Part shown: positions 332 through 14,248 of the stretch, in pieces
How the letters are laid out: each line of letters opens with the position of its first letter
Numbering within the stretch: position 1 is the stretch's first letter
Origin: Saprospiraceae bacterium
Lineage (GTDB): Bacteria > Bacteroidota > Bacteroidia > Chitinophagales > Saprospiraceae
Length of the DNA: 32,951 bases
NCBI GenBank assembly: GCA_028277915.1
Contig: JANQFJ010000224.1
Location: 1 to 32,951, forward strand
Direction: 5' to 3'
Made by a program: the position numbers and the translations under genes
The notes under the pieces: generated by a model
What the model was told of the DNA's origin: nothing
Database searches by the model: none
Seen by the model: the letters and a program-made list of their open reading frames with translations, nothing else

Positions 332-714
332 AAAAAGCAATCACGTTAAAATTTTGTAAAAAAACATAGACGCACAAACTATTCCAGCAAAACAAACATC
401 TTTTTTCACCAAACTTGGTATTAACTTAATTGCCGTTGTATCAAATTGCTTATTTTTTAATATAATCGCCGCAACATATGAAATAATTCTCACAAAATAC
501 AGAGCTAAATGAATTTAAAAAACCAAAAGTCTATCGCTCAAACGATCAGCAATTTTCCAATTCAAGAAAATAATGGTAAAATTCTTTTCATTTTTCCTGA
601 AATTTGATCCTTTATTAAGAAATTGTTGATCAAAAAAAGTGTAACTCCAATCATATCAAAAGCAAATAAACGTTAGTGCTTTGTAAGTGTTACTAAATAA
701 AAGAAACCGAAAAT
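332..714. other. Intergenic region between divergent RNase D and AsmA genes
   Basis: A very AT-rich 383-base spacer that must carry the promoters for both divergent genes. I see no clean TAnnTTTG element for either. The nearest is TAGTTTG (minus strand, about 375-381), one base short of the consensus spacing, for the exonuclease gene. A 32-codon open frame starts at ATG 509, but nothing supports translation. No RNA gene, repeat or terminator hairpin was recognised. Confidence 0.5.
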
Positions 715-3700
715 ATGAGTATTTCAAAGACTTTGAAACGTACCCTAAAAATTCTACTTTCTCTTATCGTTGTTATCATTATTGCTGCGGTCGCTATCCC
801 TTATTTTTTCAAAGACCAAATTGTCGAAAAAGTAAAAGAGGATATCAATAAAAATGTAAATGCAAAAGTTGACTTCAATGAAGTCAGTTTGTCTTTGTTC
901 AGAAGTTTTCCAAATTTCAGTTTTAAACTCTCCGATTTTGAGATAACAGGGATTAATGAGTTTGAAAATCTACGTTTGGTAGCCGCTGAAAATATTGATT
1001 TTACGTTGGACCTGATGTCCGTCATCCAAACAGAAAGCCCGATTGAAGTACAATCCGTTCATTTGGACAAGCCCGAGGTCAACATAAAAATCCTTCGCAA
1101 CGGAACAGCGAATTACGACATTGCAAAAGTTGATTCAACCACTACTTCTTCAACTACTGAAAGTGCTGAATCTTATAACTTTCTCGTTAAACTTAAAGAA
1201 TATTCTATCAACAGTGGAAGCTTTGTTTATGATGACAAACCCAACGACACTAATATTGAAATAACGGACATGGACCATGCCGGAAGCGGTGAATTTACCG
1301 CAGAGATTTATGATATTTTTACAAAAACCAATATTGAAAATCTTACTGTAACTTCAGGTGGAATTACTTATCTCAGAAAGGCCAAAGCAGACCTCGATAT
1401 CATTTTGAGTGCTGACATGAACGATATGAAATTCACTCTGAAAGAAAACCAAATCGTCATCAATGCTCTGAAACTTGACGTTGAAGGATTTGTGCAAATG
1501 GCGGATGATGATGTCAACATGGATCTGGCCTTTGCAGCTCCTCAAAATAAGTTTAAAAACTTTTTATCTCTGATCCCAAGTGCTTATACAGTTGACTTTG
1601 TAGATGTTCAGGCCAATGGTAATTTACAATTTCAAGGAATTGTCAAAGGAACCTACAATGCATTGACTGGTAAGCTTCCTTCATTCCGTATCGATCTGAA
1701 AATCAAAGATGGGGATCTAAAATATCCTGACTTACCGCTTGGTATTTCGAAGATCAATACTTTGGCGAGTATTAATAGCCCCGGAAGCAATTTTGACCAA
1801 TTGACTGTTGATGTTTCAAACTTTAAAATGGAACTTGGTGGCAATCCCTTTGAAGCAGTTTTTAAGCTAAAAACACCCATTTCCGATCCGGATATTGATG
1901 CCAAAATTAATGGAAAAATTAACCTTGAAGAACTCGCCCAGGCGTTTCCGATGGAGGGTGTGAAAACGTTGAACGGACAAATAACTTCAGATTTAAGAGT
2001 TAATACCCGTATGTCTTTTATTGACAATCAGGATTATGAAAACATCGATATGAGTGGTGATATGCAAATCGAAAAACTGAGTTATGTAGCTGAAGGCCAG
2101 CCTAAGGTAATGATCAAAGAATTGAAAATGGGATTTAATCCGAAAAATGTGCGACTCGATAATTTTGAAGCTCAACTTGGAGAAAGTGACATCAAAGCTC
2201 GTGGAACTGTAGATAACATTTTAGCCTATTTTTCACCTGAAAAAACCATGAAAGGTGATCTGGTCATTCGATCAAATTATTTCAATGCAAATGAATGGTT
2301 GTCCGAAGAAGAATCTGCCACAACTCAAACCACATCAACGGATCGGCAGGCTGAAGCTACTGAAATTTTTGACCGTTTTGATTTTACGGTAGATGGAGAG
2401 GTAGGAAAAATTCATTATGATGTTTATCAATTGGAAAATACTTCCCTCACAGGAAATATTACGCCTAACAAAGCTAAAATTGAATCGTTTTATACAAAAA
2501 TTGAACAAAGCGACTTCCGGGCAAGTGGAACAGTCACCAATATTTTCAATTACCTTTTCGAAAATGAAACACTTTTCGGAAATATAAACCTGGCTTCAAA
2601 CTTTATCGATCTCAACCAATTTATGCTTGAAGAAGCTGCCACAGGGGAAGCTCAAGCCAAAAATATTTCCAATGGAGATCAGGAACTGGAACCAATCAAA
2701 GTACCTGAAAACATTGATTTTGATATCAATGCTGATCTTGGAAAAGTTCGCTATACCAACATTGATCTCAGGAATATAAAAGGAAAAATTTTGGCAAAAA
2801 ATGAAACTGTACAATTGAAAGACTGTTCTGCTAAAACCATGGGTGGTTCTTTCACTATAAATGGATTATACAATAGTCAGGACGAAAAAAATCCCTCTTT
2901 TGATTTGAAATACAAGGTAAAAGGATTTGACTTTCAGCAAGCTTTCAACCAACTCAATACCTTTGCCATTTTGGCGCCGATCGGCAAATATATTCAGGGA
3001 TCATTCAACACCGAAATGTCATTAAACGGTAAAGTCGGTAAAGATATGTTTCCGGATTTGGGTACTATTTCAATTGATGGTTTCATTGAAACATTGAATG
3101 GAATTGTGAAAGGTTTCCAACCTATTGAAAAATTCAGCAGCTTACTAAACATCCAGGATTTAAAGACGCTCAATATTCAAAATACCAAAAACTGGTTTGA
3201 GGTAGAAAATGGAATGGTAACTTTAAAGGACTTTGATTACACATACAAAGGAATTGCAATGGAAATTGGTGGTGCACATGGCATTTCACAGGATATGAAT
3301 TATAACATAAAAGCTAAAATTCCACGTAATATGCTGGAGAAAAATGCAGTTTCTTCAGCTGCTAATCAAGGATTGAAATTGCTGGAAAAAGAAGCTTCAA
3401 AACTTGGAATTAATATCGATGCCGGAGAATTTGTAAATGTCCTTTTCAATATTTCAGGCTCATTGAAAGATCCTAAATTTAAGTTAAATCTTTTAAATGC
3501 TGAAGGTGCGAAAACTTCTTTGAAAGACATTGCTCAAAATGTTGTTGAAGAAGCGGTTGATACCGTAAAAGCTATTGCGAAAGAAAAAATTGAAATTGTT
3601 AAAGACACAGTAGCCAAAGTAATTGACACCACCAAAGAAGACCTCAGAAAAAAAGCAGATGCTGAAATCGCCAAACTCATGGCAGAAGCCAACAAACAAG

Positions 3701-3963
3701 CAGATAATATTAAAGCTAACGCTAAACAGCTTTCCGAGGAAACCCACAAAATTGGTTACGCAAATGCAGACAAACTAATCGCCGAAGCCGGAAACAACTT
3801 TCTAAAAAAGAAAGGAGCGGAAATCGCCGCAAACAATCTTCGAAAAGAAACAGATAAAAAAGTAAACCAAATCATCAGTGAAGGGGATAAAAAAGCTCAG
3901 ACTGTAATTGATAAAGCCGAACAACAAGCAGACGCTATTCTTAAAAAATATGGGCTGGAATAA
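715..3963 (+). CDS. AsmA family protein with C-terminal Ala/Lys-rich helical tail
   Basis: A 1082-residue envelope protein of the AsmA/YhdP type, which in Gram-negative bacteria is anchored in the inner membrane and implicated in lipid transport to the outer membrane. Residues 10-31 form one hydrophobic N-terminal membrane segment (LKILLSLIVVIIIAAVAIPY), followed directly by the typical KDQIVEKVKEDINKN and FPNFSFKLSDFEI start of AsmA. Long repetitive beta-rich sequence follows, with recurring phrases such as ANGNLQFQG, DIKARGTVDN and NINLASNF, and the AsmA-like C-terminal region around residues 730-920. Residues 930-1082 are different: Ala, Lys and Glu rich, almost free of Pro and Gly, predicted here as long amphipathic helix or coiled coil. 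The ATG start fits the membrane anchor. It appears to be transcribed alone. The family call is firm; the role of the tail is unknown. Confidence 0.88.
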   Translation: MSISKTLKRTLKILLSLIVVIIIAAVAIPYFFKDQIVEKVKEDINKNVNAKVDFNEVSLSLFRSFPNFSFKLSDFEITGINEFENLRLVAAENIDFTLDLMSVIQTESPIEVQSVHLDKPEVNIKILRNGTANYDIAKVDSTTTSSTTESAESYNFLVKLKEYSINSGSFVYDDKPNDTNIEITDMDHAGSGEFTAEIYDIFTKTNIENLTVTSGGITYLRKAKADLDIILSADMNDMKFTLKENQIVINALKLDVEGFVQMADDDVNMDLAFAAPQNKFKNFLSLIPSAYTVDFVDVQANGNLQFQGIVKGTYNALTGKLPSFRIDLKIKDGDLKYPDLPLGISKINTLASINSPGSNFDQLTVDVSNFKMELGGNPFEAVFKLKTPISDPDIDAKINGKINLEELAQAFPMEGVKTLNGQITSDLRVNTRMSFIDNQDYENIDMSGDMQIEKLSYVAEGQPKVMIKELKMGFNPKNVRLDNFEAQLGESDIKARGTVDNILAYFSPEKTMKGDLVIRSNYFNANEWLSEEESATTQTTSTDRQAEATEIFDRFDFTVDGEVGKIHYDVYQLENTSLTGNITPNKAKIESFYTKIEQSDFRASGTVTNIFNYLFENETLFGNINLASNFIDLNQFMLEEAATGEAQAKNISNGDQELEPIKVPENIDFDINADLGKVRYTNIDLRNIKGKILAKNETVQLKDCSAKTMGGSFTINGLYNSQDEKNPSFDLKYKVKGFDFQQAFNQLNTFAILAPIGKYIQGSFNTEMSLNGKVGKDMFPDLGTISIDGFIETLNGIVKGFQPIEKFSSLLNIQDLKTLNIQNTKNWFEVENGMVTLKDFDYTYKGIAMEIGGAHGISQDMNYNIKAKIPRNMLEKNAVSSAANQGLKLLEKEASKLGINIDAGEFVNVLFNISGSLKDPKFKLNLLNAEGAKTSLKDIAQNVVEEAVDTVKAIAKEKIEIVKDTVAKVIDTTKEDLRKKADAEIAKLMAEANKQADNIKANAKQLSEETHKIGYANADKLIAEAGNNFLKKKGAEIAANNLRKETDKKVNQIISEGDKKAQTVIDKAEQQADAILKKYGLE

Positions 3964-3984
3964 ACCGTAAAGCAGTGAAGTAAA

Positions 3985-4031
3985 AAAGTGGTGAAGTGGT
4001 TTTGGGTTATTTTTTTCTACTTTACCACTTT
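3985..4031 (+). terminator. Imperfect hairpin downstream of the AsmA gene, possible terminator
   Basis: AAAGTGGTGAAGT (3985-3997) can pair with ACTTTACCACTTT (4019-4031) over 13 positions with one G-T wobble and a 21-base loop containing a run of T. There is no T tract after the 3' arm, so it is not a canonical intrinsic terminator. The related string AGTGAAGT also occurs just before it (3974-3981), so this may be a small local repeat instead. Confidence 0.35.
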
Positions 4032-4058
4032 GGTACTTAACCTCTTGTTCTTATTTCT

Positions 4059-4066
4059 TACATTTG
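4059..4066 (+). promoter_or_regulatory. -7 promoter element for purB
   Basis: TACATTTG followed by CGGT matches the Bacteroidota -7 consensus TAnnTTTG and lies 36 bases before the purB ATG. The same 12 bases, TACATTTGCGGT, occur upstream of purM on the opposite strand. The nearest TTTG upstream is 26 bases away, beyond the usual 17-23 spacing, so the -33 element is uncertain. Confidence 0.55.
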
Positions 4067-4102
4067 CGGTGAAATTGAAATCTTCATCTTAAACCAATTT
4101 TC

Positions 4103-5434
4103 ATGCTCACTGCTATCTCTCCAATCGATGGACGATACCACGAAAAAACAAAGGAATTATCAGAGTATTTTTCTGAATATGCGTTAATCAAGTATCGTGT
4201 TTTTGTTGAAATCCAATATTTCATTGCATTGGCTCAATTTCCTTTGCCCCAATTGGAAAAATTTGATTTGGATTTTGTGGAGCAATTGGATGCTATTTTT
4301 GAAGATTTCAGTATTGAAGATGCCGAAATTATCAAAAACATTGAAAAAACCACTAACCACGATGTCAAAGCAGTTGAGTATTTTTTGAAGACTAAATTTG
4401 AAGAACTAGGCATTTCCGAATTCAAAGAATTTATTCATTTTGGATTGACTTCCCAAGACATCAACAACACTGCTACTCCACTACTTTTGAAAAATGCCAT
4501 TGAGGAAATTTACCTTCCTCAACTGACAAAATTGAGAAACCAGGTTGCAGCTTTTGTTGAAGATTGGGCAGGTGTCCCAATGTTAGCTAGAACACATGGT
4601 CAGCCTGCTTCTCCTACTCTATTGGGTAAAGAATTTCGTGTTTTTTTAGAGCGGATTGATGTCCAATTGTTACAACTCAAATACATCCCTTATAATGCAA
4701 AATTCGGAGGAGCTACCGGCAATTTCAATGCACATTACGTGGCATATCCATCAACAAACTGGAAAGCATTTGGAGATAATTTTGTGAGCGAATATCTTGG
4801 ATTGAAACGTTCTCAGTTTACCACGCAAATTGAACATTATGACAATTTGGCTGCATTGTTCCATGTCCTGAGCCGCATAAATACTATTTTGATCGATTTG
4901 TGCAGAGATATTTGGACTTATATCAGCATGGATTATTTCAAACAAAAAACTATTCATGGCGAGATTGGATCATCTGCAATGCCGCACAAAGTGAATCCTA
5001 TTGATTTTGAAAATGCAGAAGGCAACCTGGGGATTGCAAATGCTATTTTTGGTCATTTAGCTGATAAACTACCGATCTCCAGATTACAGCGAGATTTGAC
5101 TGATAGCACGGTTTTGAGAAATATCGGCGTCCCAGTTGGGCATACGATTATAGCTTTTAAATCCATTCTAAAAGGTTTTTCAAAATTACTTTTGAATGAA
5201 GATAAATTGAATGAAGATCTAGAAAAAAACTGGATGGTCGTTGCTGAAGCGATTCAAAATATCCTTCGAAGAGAAAACTATGATCAGCCTTATGAAGCCT
5301 TGTTAAAACTTACTCGTGGCAAGGCCAAAGTCTCCCAACAAGATATTCACGAATTTATTGAAAGCCTGAATATTGCACCGAGCATCAAAGAAGAATTGTT
5401 ACAAATCACGCCACATAATTACGTTGGTGGTTAA
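4103..5434 (+). CDS. purB: Adenylosuccinate lyase
   Basis: A cytoplasmic purine-synthesis enzyme of 443 residues. It splits SAICAR to AICAR plus fumarate and adenylosuccinate to AMP plus fumarate. It belongs to the fumarase/aspartase superfamily and resembles the E. coli-type PurB, which begins with the same AISPIDGRY phrase. Visible motifs are TSQDINNT (116-123), TRTHGQPASPT with catalytic His165 (162-172), and the superfamily signature GSSAMPHKVNPIDFENAEGN (289-308), whose flexible loop carries the catalytic serine at 290 or 291. Length is normal and no key residue is missing. The ATG at 4103 fits the conserved N terminus. It has its own -7 element (4059-4066), of the same sequence as the one before purM about 10 kb away. 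Confidence 0.96.
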   Translation: MLTAISPIDGRYHEKTKELSEYFSEYALIKYRVFVEIQYFIALAQFPLPQLEKFDLDFVEQLDAIFEDFSIEDAEIIKNIEKTTNHDVKAVEYFLKTKFEELGISEFKEFIHFGLTSQDINNTATPLLLKNAIEEIYLPQLTKLRNQVAAFVEDWAGVPMLARTHGQPASPTLLGKEFRVFLERIDVQLLQLKYIPYNAKFGGATGNFNAHYVAYPSTNWKAFGDNFVSEYLGLKRSQFTTQIEHYDNLAALFHVLSRINTILIDLCRDIWTYISMDYFKQKTIHGEIGSSAMPHKVNPIDFENAEGNLGIANAIFGHLADKLPISRLQRDLTDSTVLRNIGVPVGHTIIAFKSILKGFSKLLLNEDKLNEDLEKNWMVVAEAIQNILRRENYDQPYEALLKLTRGKAKVSQQDIHEFIESLNIAPSIKEELLQITPHNYVGG

Positions 5435-10081: not shown

Positions 10082-10702
10082 ATGATCAAAAAAATTATGC
10101 TCCTTGCATTAATGCTAAACTCTTTTTTTCCAAGCATTTTAGGGCAGGGGCCGGACTCAGTCTATGTCAAAGAAATTGTCCAATTTCAGGCTGAAATAAA
10201 TTCAAAATTCACAAATAAAAGAACTTCACCTTTCTGCAATAAAGACAGGAAAAGGTTTAAAAGCCTCGAATATTATCCTATAAACAAAAGATATCGTGTA
10301 AAGGCAAAACTTGCTCGTCATCCAAATGAAGATTTTTTCAGAATGAAAACCTCAACCGGGAATCGTTCGATTTATCGAAAATATGGTGAAGTCAATTTTG
10401 AAATTGATGAAAAAAGCTTTGTTTTAAGTATCTATCAAAGCCTATCAGCAATAGAATCAACAGAACAAAAAAATGATCTTTTTCTATTGTTCAAGGATGA
10501 CACTAATGGAAATGAAACCTATGAAGGGGGTCGTTATCTGGATTTAATTATACCTGAAGGAGATATGATAATTTTGGATTTTAACAAAGCTTATAATCCA
10601 TTATGTCACTACAATAGTGCCTATTCTTGCCCTATTCCTCCAAAAGAAAATTACCTGGGCTTAGAAATTAAAGCCGGAGTAAAGAGGTATCAAAAAAATT
10701 AA
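10082..10702 (+). CDS. Exported DUF1684 family protein
   Basis: A 206-residue protein with an N-terminal signal sequence (IKKIMLLALMLNSFFPSILG), so it is probably periplasmic. The C-terminal half carries the strong DUF1684 hallmark: GGRYLDLIIPEGDMIILDFN (149-168), then KAYNPLCHYNSAYSCPIPPKEN and LEIKAG. The family is widespread in Bacteroidota and Actinobacteria and has no established function. It starts 45 bases after the formate dehydrogenase alpha gene on the same strand and may be read through from it, but I see no functional link. Its stop codon overlaps the stop of the convergent gene at 10699, leaving no room for a terminator between them. Confidence 0.8.
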   Translation: MIKKIMLLALMLNSFFPSILGQGPDSVYVKEIVQFQAEINSKFTNKRTSPFCNKDRKRFKSLEYYPINKRYRVKAKLARHPNEDFFRMKTSTGNRSIYRKYGEVNFEIDEKSFVLSIYQSLSAIESTEQKNDLFLLFKDDTNGNETYEGGRYLDLIIPEGDMIILDFNKAYNPLCHYNSAYSCPIPPKENYLGLEIKAGVKRYQKN

Positions 10703-11709
10703 TGATCTTCCTTGAGTTCAACTGTTGGTTCTTTAGCAAAGAACCGATAAGTCAATCCAGAAGTAATTTGAAACTGAGAACCGACTTGTGTCCCTTCAAG
10801 GTATTGGTATAGTGGAATCTCACTTGTTACAAATAAAGTCAAGGACTTATGAGTATAACTGATCTGAGGAACAAAAAATACTTTTTTTCCGCCAGTAGAA
10901 ACTTGTTCAACGTTGTATTTAGCTAACAGGTCAACATCTTTGGCAGCTTTCATTTTGGCAATCCACTCTCCTCTAATTTGACCGGTAAGTCCTAATTTTT
11001 TAAAGATTGTTTTTCCTACAAAAAATCCAATGCTGGCATAATCCCCAAATTTCTGTCCTAATGAATTGTACCCTTTTTTAATGTATAACATATTTAAAAA
11101 TAGGCGCAATTTTTTGTTAGTATATCCACGATATATGAAAGAATAAAACATAAAATCGTGTGAACCATTAGTAGCTTGTATTGTAGGAGGAGTAATGGCA
11201 TAAATATCTCCAACTGTCGGAGAAGAAAATATTAAAGTGGAATCATTATGTGAACCTAATGGTATTTTTAATCCCAGTCCCAGAGTTACTTCCGTTCTGA
11301 TATTTCCGTTTGTATTATTGAAAACGTCGTAGCGTGGAAAAATTATTAAATCTCCAAACCCACCTGAGGAAGTAGTCCCCTGATTCTCGAACTCAACCAA
11401 AGTCTTGTCTATAAAATAGCCAGTTGCCACAGAGAAGGTTAATTTATCTGTAAGGCCATAATCCCCACGGAAATACAAATAGTTGGTATTCAATCTATCA
11501 AACAAAGCGGTTGTGTCACGGTCTTCTGTAAAGAATTTTTTAGATTGACTCCACTGATAATTTGCAGAAAGTTCTACTTGATTTTTTTGCAATACTCCGG
11601 TAGCCGCACCACCCGCAATCGGACTTCCTGCACCTCCAGAACAACATCCCTGTGCCCAACTATAACCAGTAAAAAACAATACTATTAAGCTTACAGCAAT
11701 TATACGCAT
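10699..11709 (-). CDS. Putative outer-membrane beta-barrel protein with N-terminal CCSGG motif
   Basis: A 336-residue exported protein. A signal peptide (residues 1-19, ending in Ser-Trp-Ala) is followed by QGCCSGGAGSPIAGGAATG, a Cys pair and Gly-rich segment at the mature N terminus. The rest is alternating polar/hydrophobic sequence ending in an aromatic strand (FQITSGLTYRFFAKEP), typical of an outer-membrane barrel resembling MetA-pathway/transporter-like barrels of Bacteroidota. It is the last of three minus-strand genes; 13 bases separate it from the thioredoxin-like gene upstream, so they form an operon. The cysteine motif and the HMA-domain neighbour suggest a metal-related role, but no substrate can be read from the sequence. 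Barrel topology is inferred by eye. Confidence 0.65.
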   Translation of the reverse strand: MRIIAVSLIVLFFTGYSWAQGCCSGGAGSPIAGGAATGVLQKNQVELSANYQWSQSKKFFTEDRDTTALFDRLNTNYLYFRGDYGLTDKLTFSVATGYFIDKTLVEFENQGTTSSGGFGDLIIFPRYDVFNNTNGNIRTEVTLGLGLKIPLGSHNDSTLIFSSPTVGDIYAITPPTIQATNGSHDFMFYSFIYRGYTNKKLRLFLNMLYIKKGYNSLGQKFGDYASIGFFVGKTIFKKLGLTGQIRGEWIAKMKAAKDVDLLAKYNVEQVSTGGKKVFFVPQISYTHKSLTLFVTSEIPLYQYLEGTQVGSQFQITSGLTYRFFAKEPTVELKEDH

Positions 11710-11722
11710 AACAATTCAAGTG

Positions 11723-12502
11723 TTAATGAGATACACAAAATTTGTTTATTGCAATCCCATGATTTGTCGTAATTTTTAAGAAATAAAATCCATTATCAAA
11801 AGTACTGATATCCGTTTGAGATTGGATAACTCCAGTTCCACTTTGCGTTTCAGCTCCAATACTTTTAACAGTAGTTCCCAGCATATTTATCACCTCTATA
11901 CTAACTTTTGAAGTTTGATTTAATTTATAACTAAAGTTGAGTATCTCTCTTGCAGGATTAGGAAATGAAGTTAATTGTATTTCTGATTGAACATCATCAA
12001 TACCAACCGTGTTCATATCGGCTAATGCTTGATCTATAGCATTTCCAATTCCATGATGCGAGCTGTTTTCATTGTAGTAAACTTTATGATCAGGACCACC
12101 CAATACAACAATTTTGGGCATACCATAATCTCCATAATCTGACATATTCACCGCAGCGTCTGAAAATGTAGTTACGTTGGTAAATCCATAATTACTAGCC
12201 CAACCATTCAAAGAGGAGCAACTCGTATTTGCAAAATCATCTACAAGGTAATAAAGAACCTGACCGGGGTGACTAACTGTATATTCCATATATTCAGCAT
12301 GAGCTGCTACAGGATCTTCTATACAGGTAAAACAAGGCATTACCCAGGCAATTATAATCACTTTTCCATCATCCAACTCCGAAAATAAATTGTGGTCAAC
12401 ACCATTGCAATCGGTCGCTGTAAAATCAGTGGCGAAATTCTGCGCAAAAGAGATAGTTATCCCCATAAGAATCAAAGCGCCAATAGTTAAAATCTTTTTC
12501 AT
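11723..12502 (-). CDS. T9SS-targeted thioredoxin-like (redoxin) protein
   Basis: A 259-residue secreted protein. After a signal peptide (1-20) comes a thioredoxin-fold domain beginning FATDFTATDCNGVDHNLFSE, the usual TlpA/AhpC-TSA opening. It has a CxxC active site, MPCFTC (Cys57, Cys60), and a cis-proline motif YGMPKIVVLG. Residues 174-259 are a type IX secretion sorting domain (SFPNPAREILNF, then GTTVKS, NGFYFLKI and a short basic end), so the protein should cross the outer membrane and be displayed on the cell surface or released. It sits between the HMA gene (42 bases upstream) and the barrel gene (13 bases downstream). The most likely activity is thiol-disulfide exchange outside the cell; the partner is unknown. 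Confidence 0.78.
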   Translation of the reverse strand: MKKILTIGALILMGITISFAQNFATDFTATDCNGVDHNLFSELDDGKVIIIAWVMPCFTCIEDPVAAHAEYMEYTVSHPGQVLYYLVDDFANTSCSSLNGWASNYGFTNVTTFSDAAVNMSDYGDYGMPKIVVLGGPDHKVYYNENSSHHGIGNAIDQALADMNTVGIDDVQSEIQLTSFPNPAREILNFSYKLNQTSKVSIEVINMLGTTVKSIGAETQSGTGVIQSQTDISTFDNGFYFLKITTNHGIAINKFCVSH

Positions 12503-12544
12503 TTCAATAATGATTTTTAAAGTGAGTATTAAATAGTGGTGGTT

Positions 12545-12880
12545 TCACTGCCTGTCGTACTGACAGCAATGATGCAAATTATTATACACCTGATCAGTTG
12601 CTTTATACTCTTTTGTATCATAACCGGATAAGGCAATTTTTTTCTTAATTTCTTCAATTGAGGTTTTGTCGCTGTTGTATTTTACGACCAGTGTTTTCTT
12701 ACTGACATTCCATTTTGAAGATTTCACTCCATCAACCGACTCAGCAGCTTTTTCAATGGTTGATTTACACATCTCACAATTACCCCAGACTTTAAATGAT
12801 TCTTTTACAAGGGTTTGAGCGTTTAAATGCATCCCCATAAACAGGAATACAACAAGCAGGATATTTTTAAATATTTTCAT
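12545..12880 (-). CDS. Exported heavy-metal-associated (HMA) domain protein
   Basis: A 111-residue exported metal-binding protein of the MerP/CopZ fold. A signal peptide covers residues 1-22. The HMA domain runs from about 26 to 93; its metal loop reads WGNCEMCKSTIEKA (Cys35, Cys38), the GNCxMC variant common in Bacteroidota instead of the classical GMTCxxC. A C-terminal extension NNLHHCCQYDRQ (101-111) adds two His and two Cys, a possible second metal site. It is the first gene of the three-gene minus-strand operon and has a perfect -7 element about 50 bases upstream. It could be a periplasmic copper or mercury chaperone; the sequence alone does not identify the metal. Confidence 0.85.
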   Translation of the reverse strand: MKIFKNILLVVFLFMGMHLNAQTLVKESFKVWGNCEMCKSTIEKAAESVDGVKSSKWNVSKKTLVVKYNSDKTSIEEIKKKIALSGYDTKEYKATDQVYNNLHHCCQYDRQ

Positions 12881-13069: not shown

Positions 13070-14248
13070 CTAATAAATAAACTTTCCAAAAGGGCTATTG
13101 ATAGTGACTTTTTCACCATTGTATTCTTCTACATAACCGATAATCTGAGCTTCAATTTTGAAACTTTTGGCGATATCAATAATATCCTGAGCATGCTCCT
13201 CAGGCAAATACACCTCAAGCCGATGTCCCATGTTGAATACTTGATACATTTCTTTCCAACTTGTATCAGCGGAATCCTGGATCATTTTAAACAAATGAGG
13301 TATCGGTAGAAGATTATCTTTGATGATGTGCTTGTTGTTTATGAATTTTTGCACTTTTGTTTGTCCTCCACCCGTGCAATGAATTAGGCCATTTATAACT
13401 GAATGATGGGAATTGAGCATTTTCACTAAAACAGGCAAATATGTCCGAGTAGGGGAAAGAATTAGTTTTCCAACATCCATCTTCTCATCAACGCCTTCTA
13501 TTTCAACATCGTCTGTCAATTTTTGAATGCCCATATACGCTACTTCCATTGGCATTCCATCGTCGAAACTTTCCGGAAACATATCAGCATAATCATAGTT
13601 CAAAACATCATGCCGTGCAGACGTCAGTCCATTGCTACCAGTCCCACCGTTATAATGGTTTTCATAAGAAGCTTGTCCATAAGAAGCCAATCCGACAATA
13701 ACATCTCCAGCTTTTATATCGTTGACAATCAATTCATTGCGCTTTAGTCGTGCAAAAGCTGTATATCCCACATCAATGGTCCGAACAATATCACCAACAT
13801 CGGCAGTTTCTCCGCCAGCCAGATAAACACCAACACCAAAATCGTTTAACATACTTAAAAATTCATCAGCCGCATTGATAATAGTACTGATGACCTCACC
13901 ACTAATTAATCGTTTATTTCGACCAATTGTAGAAGACAACACAATATTGTCAATCGCTCCTACACAAGCCATATCATCGAGATTCATAACGATAGCGTCC
14001 TGAGCTATTCCTTTCCAGACATCAAGGTTGCCTGTTTCCCTCCAATACATATAAGCAAGGCTGGTTTTGGTCCCAGCAGTATCAGCATGCATCAAATTGC
14101 AATAGTCAGGATCTCCTGCGACGATATCTGGAAGTATCTTACAAAACGCATTTGGATACAGCCCTTTATCGAGATTTTTGATCGCATCGTGGACTTCACC
14201 TTTTGTTGCAGAAACACCTCTAAGATCGTACTTATATTTTTCCGGCAT
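13070..14248 (-). CDS. purM: Phosphoribosylformylglycinamidine cyclo-ligase (AIR synthase), Bacteroidota long form
   Basis: A 392-residue cytoplasmic purine-synthesis enzyme that closes the imidazole ring of FGAM using ATP to give AIR. It shows the PurM/SelD-superfamily motifs in order: MHADTAGTKTSLAY (53-66), QDAIVMNLDDMACVGA (83-98, the acidic metal/ATP segment), LAGGETADVGD (143-153) and HCTGGGQTK (290-298). It is longer than the about 345-residue E. coli enzyme and matches the divergent form general in Bacteroidota, so annotation pipelines may call it only AIR synthase-related. The ATG at 14248 is followed by a typical KYDLRGVSA N terminus. It is transcribed alone, divergently from the T9SS gene at 14469, from a -7 element whose 12 bases match those before purB. 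Confidence 0.88.
   Translation of the reverse strand: MPEKYKYDLRGVSATKGEVHDAIKNLDKGLYPNAFCKILPDIVAGDPDYCNLMHADTAGTKTSLAYMYWRETGNLDVWKGIAQDAIVMNLDDMACVGAIDNIVLSSTIGRNKRLISGEVISTIINAADEFLSMLNDFGVGVYLAGGETADVGDIVRTIDVGYTAFARLKRNELIVNDIKAGDVIVGLASYGQASYENHYNGGTGSNGLTSARHDVLNYDYADMFPESFDDGMPMEVAYMGIQKLTDDVEIEGVDEKMDVGKLILSPTRTYLPVLVKMLNSHHSVINGLIHCTGGGQTKVQKFINNKHIIKDNLLPIPHLFKMIQDSADTSWKEMYQVFNMGHRLEVYLPEEHAQDIIDIAKSFKIEAQIIGYVEEYNGEKVTINSPFGKFIY

Follow-up and report, generated by a model that had tools for sequence, protein, structure and literature searches.

To our knowledge, how copper and metals like it cross the outer membrane of Bacteroidota has been little studied. The described system that comes closest to the locus reported here is PcoB/CopB. 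PcoB is predicted to form a barrel of 12 strands; its N-terminal region, which is disordered and rich in His and Met, is required for the efflux of copper, and the protein is coupled to a partner enzyme, the oxidase PcoA (PMC12509749). A second point of reference is the COG4313 channel, in whose structure the lumen is blocked by the segment preceding strand 1; neither metal-binding tails nor an invariant Cys-Cys pair are described for COG4313/FapF 12-stranded channels in the accessible part of the source (PMC4493636). The remaining systems to be compared are CusCBA/CusF, the HMA proteins CopZ and MerP, and the TlpA/AhpC-TSA/Redoxin proteins.

The stretch of DNA analysed here (the window; 32,951 nucleotides) is one contig (C307) of a Saprospiraceae assembly of 4.3 Mb in 352 contigs, which is 75.7% complete. 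The closest relatives of its proteins and the type IX secretion genes of the genome likewise point to Bacteroidota. It encodes, head to tail on the minus strand and with gaps of 42 and 13 bases, an HMA-domain protein, a redoxin-like protein and an outer-membrane beta-barrel (Table 1). This co-directional, adjacent trio is laid out as a sequence-only reading had described it, and the Cys motifs listed in that reading, namely GNCEMC, HHCC, MPCFTC and QGCCSGG, are all present in the three sequences. Read by eye, the N termini of all three proteins resemble signal peptides ending near AQ. The 5' neighbour of the trio is an AIR-synthase-related gene (13070-14248); at the other side, a DUF1684 gene (10082-10702) runs convergently towards the barrel gene, and the ends of the two share 4 bases. 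A Bacteroidetes promoter pattern had no match near the trio, and the sigma-70-like and terminator-like matches around it were not above chance level. SprA, of the T9SS translocon, is encoded elsewhere in the host genome (2390 bits, G000:C29).

Table 1. Features of the trio in the window, and of the lipoprotein-like gene found upstream of one barrel subfamily (positions within the respective loci).
Feature	Position	Strand	Details
Outer-membrane beta-barrel	10699..11709	-	336 aa; AlphaFold model; PDB matches FapF, COG4313 channel
Cys22-Cys23 near the mature N terminus of the barrel	11641..11646	-	47/47 relatives
Redoxin-like protein with T9SS sorting tail	11723..12502	-	259 aa; tail in 36/36 relatives scanned
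CFTC motif of the redoxin, residues 57-60	12323..12334	-	both Cys 46/46
T9SS type A C-terminal sorting domain, residues 180-257	11732..11965	-	PF18962, E 3.4e-13
HMA-domain protein	12545..12880	-	111 aa; putative N-terminal export signal; CxxC, C-terminal CC; Pfam HMA
CEMC metal-binding motif of the HMA domain, residues 35-38	12767..12778	-	sequence
C-terminal Cys-Cys of the HMA protein, residues 105-106	12563..12568	-	sequence; recurs in relatives
Lipoprotein-like gene	L129 6769-7137; L130 9413-9799; L131 9463-9801; L132 3028-3432; L135 10242-10595; L136 8925-9335; L142 4683-5036		

The barrel shares with PcoB/CopB its location in the outer membrane, an N-terminal region of metal-binding type that precedes strand 1, and a closely coupled redox partner (PMC12509749). 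Contrary to those proteins, however, its N-terminal region is Cys-Cys/Gly-rich rather than His/Met-rich, its partner is a T9SS redoxin rather than a multicopper oxidase, the barrels of its relatives carry C-terminal HMBD or HMA domains, and no match to the CopB Pfam family was found among 35 barrels at E up to 0.1. The best reading would be that the barrel works like PcoB/CopB without being a member of that family by sequence or N-terminal region. CusCBA/CusF genes are linked to the barrel in many relatives, and HMBD and HMA domains are shared with CusB proteins, but the window has no RND pump, adaptor or TolC-type protein, and the barrel is not a CusC, since it gives no OEP match. The HMA protein itself matches Pfam HMA (PF00403; E 1.9e-11, 44.6 bits against a cut-off of 24.8) and has the HMA fold with CxxC of CopZ and MerP, being exported like the latter. 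Contrary to them, it has an extra C-terminal CC and scores below the cut-offs of the NCBIfam equivalogs for CopZ (46 of 91 bits) and MerP (28.7 of 92.55 bits). In the HHCC tail to which attention had first been drawn, the CC recurs in relatives, but the HH does not.

Relatives of the locus were picked by the barrel alone. Searching genome contigs gave three loci (L020-L022; 49-56% identity), and 395 genomes of the class gave 43 strong places (>300 bits, window included); these loci, plus L126 (the other half of a split barrel) and L138, make up 48 barrel frames. In 43 of the 48, a redoxin of the same family is encoded directly upstream of the barrel on the same strand, with a gap of -62 to 196 bases, an adjacency that rules out a chance grouping of the pair. 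As for the exceptions, in L083, L121 and L125 the barrel lies at the end of a contig, and another contig of the same genome ends in a redoxin (L084, L141 and L126, respectively); in L105, one gene separates redoxin and barrel; and in L138, TlpA and DUF6029 genes separate the barrel from a different T9SS thioredoxin-like protein. The divergence of redoxins and that of barrels are correlated over 39 pairs (r 0.61 versus a maximum of 0.31 in 2000 permutations; L021, L119 and L126 excluded), a correlation to which shared descent contributes, the loci stemming from related genomes and not being independent. The HMA gene lies directly before the redoxin gene only in the window and L022 (2/48), and farther upstream on the same strand in L085, L087, L090, L091 and L114. 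Therefore, the conserved unit is the redoxin-barrel pair, and HMA is a looser third part, so that the neighbourhood conservation looked for in the trio holds for the pair and fails for HMA as its direct neighbour. A tblastn search with the barrel found no match in 72,556 plasmid records. A phylum-wide sample of 395 genomes gave barrel matches in 2 of them with an E limit of 1e-40, far fewer than in the class sample, which is a different draw of genomes.

Metal-binding domains are attached to the barrels themselves. Of 35 barrels, 18 contain Pfam HMBD, with a score above the Pfam cut-off in L020, and one contains Pfam HMA. The Cys pattern of the HMBD-type tail is present in 27 of the 48 aligned barrels, and the tail motif, which misses some tails such as that of L102, in at least 24 of 44 loci. 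In L124, the barrel protein (455 aa) carries at its C-terminal end an HMA domain with CxxC and a CC tail; this domain reaches 75.8 bits with a model made from the HMA proteins of the window and L022, and 18.5 of the 24.8 bits required by Pfam. The same type of HMA domain is fused to CusB in L151 (Pfam, 21.2 of 24.8 bits), and HMBD is found on the CusB proteins of L088 and L151. Both metal-binding attachments are common to barrels and CusB proteins. The idea that an HMBD tail and an HMA gene exclude each other was discarded, as L083, L090, L091 and L114 carry both.

The genes around the barrel show a similar picture. CusA, CusB, CusC, HYC_CC_PP or HMA is encoded near 16 of 44 barrel loci (15 of 43 without the window, which counts through its own HMA), versus 1 of 39 control stretches, these being chosen places on longer contigs of the same genomes and not random ones; HYC or HMA alone gives 11/44 versus 0/39. 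One of the 16, L121, is included through an HMA match that is a P-type ATPase on the opposite strand, and the fetched stretches of the remaining 28 loci hold no CusABC, HYC or HMA gene. When whole genomes were searched and read by hand, the 15 kb around the barrel held a CusA-family gene in at least 11 of the 44 genomes and an HYC_CC_PP gene in 12, a linkage spanning at least seven genera. The most complete arrangement, small frames aside, runs on one strand as HYC-HMA-CusA-CusA-CusC-CusB-CusB-redoxin-barrel in L090, L091 and L114. Two remote barrels with the same Cys-Cys start (L128 and L139) stand beside MerA-like, HMA and ArsR-type genes. Within the window, no CusA, CusB, CusC or HYC_CC_PP gene was found, its own HMA being the only gene of this set. 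The host has a Cus-like run on contig C210 (L143 4446-12281), where CusA, CusC and CusB lie between two HYC_CC_PP genes; redoxin, barrel and HMA are absent from this run.

Given the co-conservation of the pair, the fusion of HMBD and HMA domains to barrels, and the enrichment of Cus, HYC and HMA genes nearby, it is well supported that redoxin and barrel are functionally linked and tied to heavy-metal handling in the class. The sequence-only reading had proposed a route for the capture, reduction and passage of metal; its metal role and gene link are backed by the fusions and the neighbours, its capture and reduction steps are not, and the Cus context speaks for efflux rather than capture. With moderate confidence, we read the trio as a module of the cell envelope that serves the efflux or detoxification of a soft metal at the outer membrane, most likely Cu(I), with Ag or Hg possible. 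It would probably represent an unstudied way of moving toxic metal out across the outer membrane. The identity of the metal, its direction, the position of the Cys-Cys pair at the pore, and the surface location and reaction of the redoxin are features that we infer.

According to this efflux reading, the periplasmic HMA protein would bind the metal through its CxxC and CC tail and hand it on to the barrel, the putative outer-membrane conduit, where the metal would pass via Cys22-Cys23. In many relatives, the capture would be done by the HMBD or HMA domain on the C terminus of the barrel, and the C terminus of such barrels is periplasmic. The N-terminal Cys-Cys/Gly segment, placed at or in the pore in analogy to COG4313, might act as a thiol relay or gate. 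The redoxin, exported by T9SS to the outer face, would accept the metal, change its redox state, or keep thiols in order. A more specific version, which we offer as a tentative and rather speculative suggestion, is a metal relay ending on the surface, from HMA or HMBD to the paired cysteines in the channel and on to a thioredoxin-like T9SS protein that accepts the metal or converts its redox state and so gives direction to the process. We know of no metal-efflux system with a surface-anchored thiol protein at the channel exit.

The same parts could also work in the opposite direction, with the surface redoxin freeing or reducing a metal, the barrel admitting it, and the periplasmic HMA protein receiving it as acceptor. 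Such a metal acquisition would agree with the TonB receptor found within the gene run together with HMA in L022 and L083. However, the genes most often linked to the barrel are those of Cus RND efflux (CusC near 11/44 loci, CusB near 14/44), and the barrel has no TonB plug, so that we consider acquisition unlikely.

The redoxin does bear the T9SS sorting domain that had been assigned to it (PF18962, 50.1 bits against a cut-off of 27), and so do all the relatives scanned. Among the 47 redoxins aligned, all scoring >200 bits (lower scorers such as L102, L119 and L124 left out), C32, C57 and C60 are invariant (46/46 each), as is C95 (47/47), and H139 is present in 45 of 47; C32 and C95 come in addition to the motifs first listed. 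It resembles the TlpA/AhpC-TSA/Redoxin proteins in a CxxC following a strand, a later conserved M-P and weak profile matches, and differs from them in the extra C32 and C95, the T9SS tail and the lack of a Pfam match, the Redoxin family giving none with the window protein at E up to 1. The redoxin alignment holds 36 of the 47 redoxins, and the barrel alignment 35 of the 48 barrels. Weak thioredoxin-like Pfam matches appear in 5 of 36 relatives (best E 0.0023), and hhalign gave a weak match between the redoxin profile and the redoxins of the host itself (E 0.0031; controls 0.21-0.81). The structure model (pLDDT 48.5) was too poor for a fold search, and a PDB sequence search with the profile returned mostly T9SS-tail matches, plus two weak ones, to a thiol-disulfide oxidoreductase (E 0.021) and to an alcohol dehydrogenase. 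Taken together, the weak profile matches, the CxxC and the conserved M128-P129 support a predicted thioredoxin-like domain. In L108 (9683-11241), L111 (10098-11662) and L084 (11584-13038), two redoxin genes stand in tandem.

Four invariant cysteines would also suit a protein devoted to thiol/disulfide housekeeping at the outer membrane and surface, which would maintain the cysteines of the barrel and others in reduced or paired form and for which metals would matter only as thiol attackers, and the barrels of L138 and L129 indeed accompany a T9SS thioredoxin-like or TlpA-type protein. Even so, housekeeping leaves no place for the metal-binding domains fused to barrels, and we regard this explanation as distinctly unlikely.

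The barrel of the window has no family match in Pfam and NCBIfam. In the 48 barrels aligned, Cys22-Cys23 is invariant (47/47), and the barrel start reads A-Q-(G)-C-C, which we take not to be a lipoprotein box. Its AlphaFold model (pLDDT 61.4) has 12 or more strands, and the best PDB fold matches are FapF (Z 19.3, 250 residues aligned, 3.3 A) and the COG4313 channel 4rl8 (Z 19.2, 252 aligned, 3.3 A), at only 11-13% identity, with autotransporters ranking lower (Z about 16). Since the segment before strand 1 blocks the lumen in COG4313, Cys22-Cys23 may sit in or under the pore, in a part of the model with pLDDT <50. These fold matches, along with a weak match to Phenol_MetA_deg in 5 of 35 barrels (Pfam), would agree with the barrel being a COG4313-type channel for hydrophobic molecules or a FapF-like secretion pore, serving the redoxin or other cargo. 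Nevertheless, a common fold shows no function, the redoxin has its own T9SS export tail, and the metal-domain fusions and metal neighbours speak against a channel or pore of this kind, which makes it an improbable explanation. That three unrelated exported genes came together by chance would agree with HMA being directly beside the pair so rarely, but is so hard to reconcile with the adjacency of the pair, its correlated divergence (partly shared descent) and the domain fusions that it can be dismissed as extremely improbable.

No description of the redoxin-barrel pair was found in the open PMC literature (titles and abstract starts), nor any match for HYC_CC_PP in open PMC. The module is frequent in the sampled class, as the number of strong barrel places among its 395 genomes indicates, offers clear residues for mutation, and would tie type IX secretion to metal handling. 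Its genes are candidates for a directly testable step at the outer membrane that would accompany Cus efflux.

Other genes recur around the barrels. At 6 of 44 loci, a gene triple lies between the Cus genes and the redoxin-barrel pair, as in L088 (11773-13691), L147 (12151-14146) and L083 (1625-3521). It encodes a cytochrome c, a roughly 410-aa protein that matches no Pfam family, and a second, small cytochrome-like protein, and may provide a route for electrons connected with the handling of metals. Remote barrels starting with QTCCS or QACCSGG (L006, L007, L010, L012 and L133) directly adjoin a DUF3179 protein, which is Pfam-confirmed at L010; DUF3179 is listed among the selenoprotein families with a UxxC motif (accessible part of PMC9312934). 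In L138, from a genome of the same order, a T9SS thioredoxin, a TlpA-like protein and DUF6029 precede the barrel (681-4894), and the opposite strand encodes a regulator of the ArsR type along with a cupredoxin-like T9SS protein, the latter scoring below the cut-off. Finally, in a barrel subfamily with a QCCSPGNPVGG-like start, a lipoprotein-like gene of 110-140 aa with a conserved Cys is located directly upstream of the barrel (Table 1).
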